This document shows positions 1 through 43,626 of a stretch of DNA of 64,000 bases, one piece after another; positions within the stretch are counted from its first letter, which is position 1, and each line of letters opens with the position of its first letter. The notes under the pieces are model-generated. The model did not search any database, was not told the DNA's origin, and worked only from the letters and a program-made list of their open reading frames with translations. Source of the stretch: Pseudocitrobacter faecalis (GTDB lineage: Bacteria > Pseudomonadota > Gammaproteobacteria > Enterobacterales > Enterobacteriaceae); assembly GCA_003315335.1 (NCBI GenBank), contig QNRL01000001.1, forward strand, positions 914,214 to 978,213, in the 5' to 3' direction. Made by a program: the position numbers and the translations under genes.

Positions 1-654
1 CAGAACAGAACAATCAGATTGGCACGATCGGTTCCCTCTCCCTGCGGGAGAGGGGAAAACCAGCACAGAACAATCAGATTGGCACGATCGGTTCCCTCTC
101 CCTCCGGGAGAGGGGAAAACCAGCACAGAACAATCAGATTGGCACGATCGGTTCCCTCTCCCTCCGGGAGAGGGGAAAACCAGCACAGAACAATCAGATT
201 GGCACGATCGGTTCCCTCTCCCTGCGGGAGAGGGGAAAACCAGCACAGAACAATCAGATTGGCACGATCGGTTCCCTCTCTCTGCGGGAGAGGGGAAAAC
301 CAGCACAGAACAATCAGATTGGCACGATCGGTTCCCTCTCTCTGCGGGAGAGGGGAAAACCAGCACAGAACAATCAGATTGGCACGATCGGTTCCCTCTC
401 TCTGCGGGAGAGGGGAAAACCAGCACAGAACAATCAGATTGGCACGATCGGTTCCCTCTCCCTGCGGGAGAGGGGAAAACCAGCACAGAACAATCAGATT
501 GGCACGATCGGTTCCCTCTCCCTGTGGGAGAGGGGGAAAACCAGCACAGAACAATCAGATTGGCACGATCGGTTCCCTCTCCCTGCGGGAGAGGGGAAAA
601 TCAGCACAGAACAATCAGATTGGCACGATCGGTTCCCTCTCCCTGCGGGAGAGG
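1..654. repeat. Tandem array of eleven 60-bp units
   Basis: Eleven head-to-tail copies of a 60-bp unit fill the left edge; the ninth is 61 bp because of one extra G. The array may continue to the left of the window. Each unit holds the invariant block GGCACGATCGGTTCCCTCT, a palindrome with 9-bp arms CCCTCTCCC/GGGAGAGGG around a 3-base loop, a short inverted repeat CAATC-A-GATTG, and one Dam site within CGATCG. CGATCG occurs at 25, 85, 145, 205, 265, 325, 385, 445, 505, 566 and 626. Units differ mainly at the hairpin centre (CCTGC, CCTCC, TCTGC, CCTGT). The last unit passes into GGGTTAGGGTGAGGGC, which resembles the right half of a REP-like element common in enterobacteria. The array lies just downstream of the bglX stop codon. 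Because 60 is divisible by three, one frame stays open across it, but I do not regard that as a gene. Confidence 0.95.
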
Positions 655-668
655 GTTAGGGTGAGGGC
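632..668. repeat. REP-like palindromic element at the array boundary
   Basis: The last array unit has the palindrome CCCTCTCCCTGCGGGAGAGG followed by GTTAGGGTGAGGGC, which the other ten units lack. The form palindrome-TTAGGGTGAGGGC is a familiar extragenic repeat of enterobacteria and other gammaproteobacteria (recognised from memory). The 60-bp units may have arisen by amplifying a truncated copy of this element plus its flank. It ends against the bglX stop codon, so the bglX transcript would carry this hairpin first. Confidence 0.6.
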
Positions 669-2966
669 CTACTTCAGCTCAAACGCTCCCTGCTTCACGC
701 GCGCCGAATCGACACCAATAAAGACGTTGAACTTGCCCGGTTCCGCATCGTATTTCATGCTCTGATTCCAGAACTTCAGCGCTTCAACATCAATCGGGAA
801 GCTGACGGTCTGCGTTTCACCGGGTTTCAGCGTCACTTTCTCAAAGCCTTTCAGCTGTTTCACCGGACGACTCATCGACGCCGTGACGTCCTGCAAGTAC
901 ATCTGAATCACCGTCGCGCCTTCGCGCTTACCGCTGTTAGTCACCTCCACACTTGCGGTGACTTTACCGTCACGCGTCATTGACGGGGCCGACATTTTCA
1001 CGTCAGAAACCGTGAACGTCGTGTAGCTCAGGCCATAGCCGAACGGATACAGTGGGCCGTTAGCTTCATCGAAATAGCGCGAGGTGTATTTGTTTGGCTT
1101 ATCCGCATTATACGGACGACCGGTGTTGAGATGGCTGTAGTAAACCGGGATCTGCCCGACAGAGCGCGGGAAGGACATCGGCAATTTACCCGACGGGTTG
1201 TAATCACCAAACAGCACGTCGGCAATAGCGTTCCCGCCTTCGGTGCCGGCGAACCAGGTTTCCAGAATCGCATCAGCCTGCTGATCTTCTTTTACCAGCG
1301 CCAGCGGACGCCCGTTCATCAGCACCAGCACCAGCGGTTTGCCGGTGGCTTTCAGCGCGGCAATCAGGTCGCGCTGACTTTGTGGGATTTCAATATTGGT
1401 ACGGCTGGAAGCTTCATGCGCCATGCCCTGCGCTTCGCCCACTACGGCAACCACCACATCAGATTGCTTCGCGGCGGCAACCGCTTCATCAATCATCGCC
1501 TGCGGGGAACGCGGGTCAACTTTCACCGCCTCTTCATACAAATTCAGGAAGTCGACAATACCTTTATCGTTGGTGACATTCGCGCCTTTGGCGTAAACCA
1601 CGTTGCCCTTATCACCCAGCGCGTTTTTAATCCCGGTGAGCACGGTCACCGACTGGTCTGCCACACCCGCCGCCGACCAGCTTCCCATCACATCACGCTT
1701 ACTGTCGGCCAGTGGGCCAACCACGGCAATGGTGCCGGATTTTTTCAGTGGCAGCGTCTCGAGACGGTTTTTCAGCAATACCAGACTTTCGCGCGCGACT
1801 TCACGTGCGTCTTTACGGTGCAGACGGCTTTCGGCATTGGTGTCCTGTGGGTCAGACTCTTTCGGCCCAAGATGGCTGTACGGGTCGTTAAACAATCCCA
1901 TATCATATTTGACGTTCAGCACATGACGCGTGGCATCATCCAGCTCCGCCATCGTCACCTTGCCAGATTTCACCAGCCCTGGCAGATATTTGCTGTAATA
2001 TTCGTCGCTCATACTCATGTTGATGCCGGACTTCAGCGCCACGCGTACCGCATCTTCCGGGTCAGAAGCGGTGCCGTGTTTAATCAGCTCTTTAATCGCG
2101 CCGTGGTCGGAAACGGTAATACCCTTAAAGCCCCATTTATCACGCAGGATCTCTTTGAGCAGCCAGGCATCTGACGTTGCAGGTGTGCCGTTCAGCGAGT
2201 TCAGCGCCACCATTACCGCGCCGCTGCCCGCATCCAGCCCCGCCTTGTATGGCGGCATATAATCGTTAAACAGGCGCTGCGAGCTCATATCAACGGTGTT
2301 GTACTCTTTCCCGCCCTCAACCGCGCCGTAAGCGGCGAAGTGTTTAACGCTGGTCATCACCGAATAGCGATCCGCCGGGCTTTTGCCCTGCATCGCTTCC
2401 ACCATGGTTTTGCCCATGATGGAGGTCAAATAGGTATCTTCACCAAAACCTTCCGAGGCACGGCCCCAGCGCGGGTCGCGCGAGACATCAACCATCGGCG
2501 CCCAGGTCATGTTCAGGCCGTCGTCCGCCGCTTCATACGCAGACACACGGCCAACGGTGCGCACCGCATCAAGGTTAAAACTTGACGCCAGGCCGAGGCT
2601 TATCGGGAATACGGTACGCTGGCCATGCAGCACGTCGTAGGCGAAGAAGAGAGGAATTTTCAGGCGGCTCAGTTCCATCACCTGATCCTGCATTTTGCGG
2701 ATATCCTGGCGGGTCACGGTGTTAAAGATAGCGCCAACCTGGCCCTCTTTAATCATGTCGCGGATCGCCTCTTTCGGGTTATCCGGCCCCACGCTTATCA
2801 GACGAAGCTGGCCGATTTTTTCATCAACCGTCATTTTTTTGAGCAACCCGGTAACGAACGCATCCCGCGCCTCGGGCGTCAACGGGTGGTTGCCGAACAG
2901 ATCTTCCGCCAGCGCGGGTTGCAGCGCCAGGCTCACGGCGACGCCTACAGAACATAACCATTTCAT
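669..2966 (-). CDS. bglX: Periplasmic beta-glucosidase BglX
   Basis: A glycoside hydrolase family 3 enzyme that hydrolyses beta-glucosides in the periplasm. The 765-residue product matches the length of E. coli BglX. It begins with a Sec signal peptide (cleavage near ALA-ED, residue 20). The GH3 N-terminal barrel contains KHFAAYG near residue 208 and the nucleophile motif TVSDHGA with Asp287. The GH3 C-terminal domain and a fibronectin-III-like domain follow, the latter ending near the C-terminus. The start ATG is preceded by AAAGAG. The gene diverges from dld, and its 3' end abuts the 60-bp array, so its mRNA would run into up to eleven hairpins on this strand. Confidence 0.97.
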   Translation of the reverse strand: MKWLCSVGVAVSLALQPALAEDLFGNHPLTPEARDAFVTGLLKKMTVDEKIGQLRLISVGPDNPKEAIRDMIKEGQVGAIFNTVTRQDIRKMQDQVMELSRLKIPLFFAYDVLHGQRTVFPISLGLASSFNLDAVRTVGRVSAYEAADDGLNMTWAPMVDVSRDPRWGRASEGFGEDTYLTSIMGKTMVEAMQGKSPADRYSVMTSVKHFAAYGAVEGGKEYNTVDMSSQRLFNDYMPPYKAGLDAGSGAVMVALNSLNGTPATSDAWLLKEILRDKWGFKGITVSDHGAIKELIKHGTASDPEDAVRVALKSGINMSMSDEYYSKYLPGLVKSGKVTMAELDDATRHVLNVKYDMGLFNDPYSHLGPKESDPQDTNAESRLHRKDAREVARESLVLLKNRLETLPLKKSGTIAVVGPLADSKRDVMGSWSAAGVADQSVTVLTGIKNALGDKGNVVYAKGANVTNDKGIVDFLNLYEEAVKVDPRSPQAMIDEAVAAAKQSDVVVAVVGEAQGMAHEASSRTNIEIPQSQRDLIAALKATGKPLVLVLMNGRPLALVKEDQQADAILETWFAGTEGGNAIADVLFGDYNPSGKLPMSFPRSVGQIPVYYSHLNTGRPYNADKPNKYTSRYFDEANGPLYPFGYGLSYTTFTVSDVKMSAPSMTRDGKVTASVEVTNSGKREGATVIQMYLQDVTASMSRPVKQLKGFEKVTLKPGETQTVSFPIDVEALKFWNQSMKYDAEPGKFNVFIGVDSARVKQGAFELK

Positions 2967-3162
2967 GTTGTCAGTCTCTTTATTCCATGCCAGTCAATCG
3001 GCGAAAGTTGATGAAAAACCGCAGTTTGCCATAAGCCTAAACGGCTGAGGAGCAGAAAGCGAAGGTTATTCTCTGAATTTTCGAAACATTCGTACTCCCA
3101 ATAAATCTGCAAAGCGCTATTCTTAGGGACGACAAATTAGTCTCACCACAAGGAGTGGAATG
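2967..3162. promoter_or_regulatory. Divergent bglX-dld intergenic region
   Basis: About 195 bp separate the divergent starts of bglX and dld, so promoters for both should lie here. The dld side has a good ribosome binding site, AAGGAG, at 3150-3155. I could not assign convincing -35/-10 pairs or an operator by eye. Confidence 0.5.
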
Positions 3163-43426: not shown

Positions 43427-43626
43427 GCCTGATGCGCTTCGCTTATCAGGCCTACAAGGTCGGTGCAATTTATCAAATTGTATTCACTTGTAGGCCGGGC
43501 AAGCGCAGCGCCCCCGGCGAGCGCGGCGAAAATGCCTGATGCGCTTCGCTTATCAGGCCTACAAGGTCGGTGCAATTTATCAAATTGTATTCATTTGTAG
43601 GCCGGGCAAGCGCAGCGCCCCGGCAA
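43427..43626. repeat. Tandemly duplicated BIME after efpL
   Basis: Two nearly identical copies, starting at 43427 and 43534 (period 107 bp), each with GCCTGATGCGCTTCGCTTAT, the middle GGTCGGTGCAATTTATCAAA, and the inverted GTAGGCCGGGCAAGCGCAGC. Differences are few (CACTTG vs CATTTG; one C in the tail). The repeats lie between efpL and the terminator shared with uxuA. Confidence 0.93.

Follow-up and report, generated by a model that had tools for sequence, protein, structure and literature searches.

A tandem hairpin array adjoining bglX in Pseudocitrobacter faecalis has the structure of an inverted triplex-motif doublet with an amplified core

The 64-kb stretch of DNA analysed here (the window) opens with a tandem array at the 3' end of a bglX-like gene. 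Judged by its sequence, the array is an inverted doublet of the enterobacterial triplex motif TM_ECO, with a type A motif at one end and a type B motif at the other, in which the intervening core has been amplified. The sequences show the doublet structure, a site that members of the genus share, an expansion seen in one lineage, junctions of chimeric make-up and recurrence at other loci. We consider it likely that hairpin slippage or unequal exchange amplified the core of the doublet and that the resulting array is neutral or nearly so.

Structure of the array

TRF resolved window positions 1-655 into 10.9 copies of a 60-bp unit with 98% matches and 0% indels. The elements of the locus are the following:

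1..655, no strand assigned: tandem array of hairpin and core units (TRF and own-genome stretch L009)
638..667, no strand assigned: full motif with 5' C-rich arm, CCCTCTCCC-TGC-GGGAGAGGG-TTA-GGGTGAGGG, within 635-667 (sequence)
647..667, plus strand: outer end adjoining bglX, type A triplex motif GGGAGAGGGTTAGGGTGAGGG (motif definition from the consulted sections of PMC4666352)
669..2966, minus strand: bglX-like GH3 beta-glucosidase of 765 aa, stop codon 1 nt from the motif
G000:C1:913887-913907, outside the window: inverted type B partner end (pattern search)

Every unit contains a hairpin with 9-bp arms (CCCTCTCCC-loop-GGGAGAGGG), a small palindrome (CAATC-A-GATTG) and CGATCG, which confirms the 60-bp units of the original prediction, each with a 9-bp-arm hairpin, a small palindrome and one GATC inside CGATCG (11 GATC). 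The hairpins of units 5-7, numbered from bglX, have a single stem mismatch. The 14 complete units differ pairwise by 1.8 edits on average and by 4 at most; the average is 1.2 edits for neighbouring units (12 pairs) and 1.9 for units that are not neighbours (79 pairs), in agreement with the prediction of local duplication. Sequence 3' of the hairpins reads AACCGATCG and has no T run; the one terminator-like site found in a search for intrinsic terminators (L009 5500-7000) lies outside the array. The next gene on the bglX strand encodes a GH28 enzyme and starts 327 bp past the far end of the array.

A CRISPR was rejected given that the whole unit is conserved, with no variable spacers (TRF; 14 complete units, at most 4 edits). 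Within positions 1-668, the plus strand has one stop-free frame and two frames with a single stop, and the minus-strand frames contain 2, 10 and 1 stops. As 60 is a multiple of 3, open frames arise by construction. The earlier statement that neither a coding nor a CRISPR explanation fits stands. An Rfam search of positions 1-3000 yielded 10 matches, all to microRNA families and far under their gathering scores.

The array had been described as continuing to the window edge. It does so, but the window edge is not the edge of the array: the first base of the window directly follows an NNNNN scaffold gap located inside the array, and beyond it another 322 bp of array (L009 5888-6209) close in the inverted end. 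In the source genome (G000) the whole array occupies G000:C1:913887-914880 and comprises 16 cores; its hairpins number 16 complete ones plus one that the gap interrupts. Because the gap lies inside the array, 16 cores are a lower bound, and the true number may be larger. The 5-N gap, together with the first window bases (cagaacagaac), which are unlike every other unit at that place, could point to a false expansion of a single doublet during assembly. However, the units on either side of the gap carry ordered, distinct variants, and short-read assemblers tend to collapse tandem arrays like these. We hold such an artefact to be very improbable.

Relationship to the TM_ECO motif and other repeat families

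In the consulted sections of Holder et al. (2015, PMC4666352), the TM_ECO triplex motif is given as CCCTCNCCC-N3-6-GGGNGAGGG-N3-GGGNGAGGG, and the E. coli motif is shown to fold as an intrastrand triplex. Type A (TTA) and type B (CCG) motifs are described there as inverted repeats at five sites of E. coli K-12, and more than 300 motifs are reported for some Enterobacter. The same sections mention that motif sites are unstable, with losses at palindromic sites after which a hairpin remains.

Both outer ends of the array match the TM_ECO pattern exactly and are inverted relative to each other, with the TTA loop (type A) beside bglX and the CCG loop (type B) at the far end. The array thus has the inverted A/B pairing of TM_ECO, and the C-rich arm, the G-rich arm and the second G-rich stretch are present in both ends. 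It differs in that its core is multiplied; core amplification was not found described in the consulted sections of PMC4666352. The inner hairpins are without the third stretch of the pattern. The array had originally been interpreted as a truncated REP-like element plus a flank amplified in tandem, which is close to the evidence except that positions 647-667 carry the motif in full; the truncated form of the triplex motif is represented by the repeated inner hairpins. The source genome contains 214 exact motifs, or 268 with up to 2 mismatches, and the reversed control pattern gave 0 matches in the same genome (motif search, up to 2 mismatches). Of 119 genomes sampled from the family, 21 contain exact motifs.

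A minisatellite inside a MITE is described for Porphyromonas gingivalis in the consulted part of PMC4596501. A tandem repeat within a miniature inverted-repeat element is common to both cases, but the MITE is another element from another phylum, likened here by description only. The doublet also resembles GTAG REPs, BIMEs and REPINs, which according to the consulted part of PMC3733652 are short palindromes in inverted pairs, intergenic and often near stops; the array doublet is likewise short, palindromic, inverted, intergenic and close to a stop. Unlike GTAG REPs and REPINs as portrayed there, the motif GGGAGAGGGTTAGGGTGAGGG has no GTAG tag, and a Y1 transposase (RAYT) was not found in G000 (no PF01797 match). 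The latter is a weak criterion since REP elements may persist after their transposase has been lost. In 10 sampled genomes with at least 20 exact motifs, Y1_Tnp matches occurred in four (G029, G030, G080, G089) and in none of the other six. Elsewhere in the window, positions 43427-43621 comprise 1.8 copies of a 107-bp repeat containing GCCTGATGCGCTTCGCTTATCAGGCC (TRF), in this genome without a PF01797 match; that sequence may be akin to the classical E. coli REP/BIME.

The bglX site in related genomes

Among 80 bglX loci from named genomes, a doublet follows the stop codon in three, namely two Pseudocitrobacter genomes (L053, L054) and Kluyvera sichuanensis (L090). One additional locus (L085) has a hairpin after bglX without the motif ends, and for another (L101) only 111 bp past the stop were available. 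The doublet is offset from the bglX stop by 1 nt in the window and in L054, by 8 nt in L053 and by 6 nt in L090. In the two sister Pseudocitrobacter genomes, treated as identical to G002 and G003 on the basis of shared coordinates, it has one core. A third genome, G001, has a 1,285-bp IS481-family element splitting the doublet that lies about 15 nt past its bglX end, and no core is visible there. A doublet is found just past the bglX stop in at least four Pseudocitrobacter genomes. Given the one-core or IS-split doublets in sister genomes, the array is a single doublet core whose amplification, to 16 copies or more, is specific to this lineage.

Against either sister core, the array units show 5.6 edits over roughly 60 positions, compared with 1.8 between units. 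The bglX DNA is 91% identical to that of the sister genomes, and the 5.6-edit divergence of the core is in line with that value. The doublet therefore probably dates back to the ancestor of the genus, and its expansion came later. With at most one mismatch allowed, a search of 197 genomes of the order detected the 22-base unit junction in two, at 12 places in G000 and at a single, mismatched place in G179. The exact core had no match in a genome-contig database in which G000 itself may be left out.

The IS481-family element of G001 (1,285 bp, NF033577; L045-L051) was located within a triplex-motif hairpin in all 7 inspected copies, which had been picked for flanking motifs. Target duplications measured 5 bp in five of these copies and 7 bp in one; the remaining copy had none. 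Four of the other five full-length copies lie 3-7 bp from an exact motif. Its insertion sites raise the possibility that the element may be an IS that targets the triplex motif specifically. Ends of the element were also found at contig ends of G000 (C1:1-93 and C5:426049-426141), next to or near exact motifs, which implies that it is present in G000 too and breaks the assembly.

Multi-core doublets and the slippage model

Distinct doublets of G000 (57) were compiled from the best array matches, the initial 30 motif places, another 40 stretches and some array regions; the sample covers part of the genome, is biased towards arrays and counts members of doublet clusters several times. More than one core was present in 13 of them. 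Counted as hairpins minus one, the numbers were 0 in two doublets, 1 in 42, 2 in five, 3 in two, 4 in four, 6 in one and 15 in one, the last being the bglX array with one hairpin lost to the gap; counts are approximate as diverged hairpins were missed (L003: 5 counted, 6 inner ones present). Of the two doublets counted as 0, L016 genuinely lacks a core and measures 45 bp, and L192 spans 73 bp with one arm diverged. In L011 and L012 it is the whole doublet that recurs, roughly every 125 bp. Another doublet, on contig C4 (L014, about 900-1350), contains a second array, which is more diverged and consists of some 7 units of about 60 bp with CGATCG.

Such multiplication could be accounted for as follows. 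Each motif end contains a self-complementary hairpin, by which the inverted ends also form an imperfect direct repeat of two 9-bp blocks with the loop between them. Slippage in replication, or unequal exchange between hairpins, would then lose or duplicate the core, and once at least two cores exist additional slippage should be easy. The units predicted by this model have B-type sequence to the left and A-type sequence to the right of every inner hairpin. In the 13 multi-core loci the right flank was A-type at 41 of 44 inner hairpins, and the left flank, read by eye, was B-like at all 44; looser rules that included end hairpins gave totals of 53 and 57. The inner hairpins are chimeras of both ends (41 of 44), matching slippage between palindromic arms. 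In 41 one-core doublets the longest exact direct repeat between the halves was 8-11 bp, as against 4-7 bp when one half was shuffled. Slippage is the most likely process, inferred from comparison across loci and genomes. Against it, the exact block shared between the arms is short (8-11 bp), and three of the 44 inner hairpins, in L168 and L188, do not fit.

The E. coli trmL-lldD doublet (K-12 span 561) was compared in 60 matches spread over 5,387 records. Full-locus spans were 561, 559, 549, 517-518, 436 and 409-411 bp, plus one partial match; variants were shorter than in K-12, with none above 561 among these matches. Four aligned variants represent deletions or replacements without gain of a core. 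This variation agrees with instability but not with core gain, and counts against the expansion part of the model. In one of these loci (L220, E. coli EC11) the core is swapped for a perfect-looking palindrome, CTGTCTCTTGATCAGGAGATCTGATCAAGAGACAG, which may be akin to IS50 inside ends.

The GATC ladder

The array contains 11 GATC sites (26, 86, 146, 206, 266, 326, 386, 446, 506, 567 and 627), spaced by 60 bp throughout apart from one step of 61, as compared with 245 sites in the whole window (one per 261 bp). This density, and the CGATCG likewise found in the units of the independent array L003/L014, would be expected of a ladder of Dam sites selected for SeqA or local methylation; that the ladder could bind SeqA or affect methylation had been proposed. 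Against such selection, of 41 one-core doublets in G000 only 7 contain GATC and 3 CGATCG (6 and 3 of 25, counted by eye, without the 16 members of whole-doublet clusters), so GATC is not conserved beyond copies of a single founder. Few sites or none occur in most of the other multi-core loci (L003 seven, L008 and L004 three each, L168 and L188 one each, the remaining listed loci none), and regular spacing is produced by unit length alone. Spacing as such was not weighed, as the literature search retrieved no passage on a SeqA spacing requirement. The proposal is not supported, and we regard selection for SeqA or methylation as extremely improbable. With GATC in so few one-core doublets, the ladder reflects the founder core: it is inherited from it as a by-product of copying.

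Possible effects on bglX mRNA

If transcribed from bglX, the array forms a string of hairpins, as originally noted; a role in RNA is plausible, and an influence on bglX mRNA or translation is possible. The first hairpin arm begins 13 nt past the bglX stop, inside the 15-nt range quoted for REP effects on translation in the consulted part of PMC12306157. The array might accordingly have been retained for an action at the RNA level, with hairpins slowing translation termination or protecting the mRNA 3' end. Positions 520-690 of the minus strand fold as RNA with a z of -2.5, and for 29 of the 57 sampled doublets the stop of an incoming frame of at least 90 codons is no more than about 15 nt away, a figure inflated by doublet clusters; the corresponding value, 12.9% of 1,500 intergenic positions at up to 17 nt from a stop, was drawn from one window only. 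However, any such effect would already be exerted by one doublet, as present in the sister genomes, so that an RNA-level role does not account for 16 cores. Retention on these grounds seems quite unlikely to us, and amplification by slippage without appreciable selection remains the preferred reading.

Implications for triplex-motif doublets

What looked like an odd ladder can be explained as repeat biology, whereby triplex-motif doublets, which are widespread, can become minisatellites. A broader proposal, which we consider unlikely, is that the inverted doublet acts as a built-in length mutator whose palindromic arms double as direct repeats, core number stepping up or down. If true, it would give a mechanism for the site instability whose cause is called unclear in the consulted sections of Holder et al., and a variable hairpin array by the bglX stop codon could tune bglX. 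Core slippage offers a concrete, testable route to the instability reported at triplex motifs.
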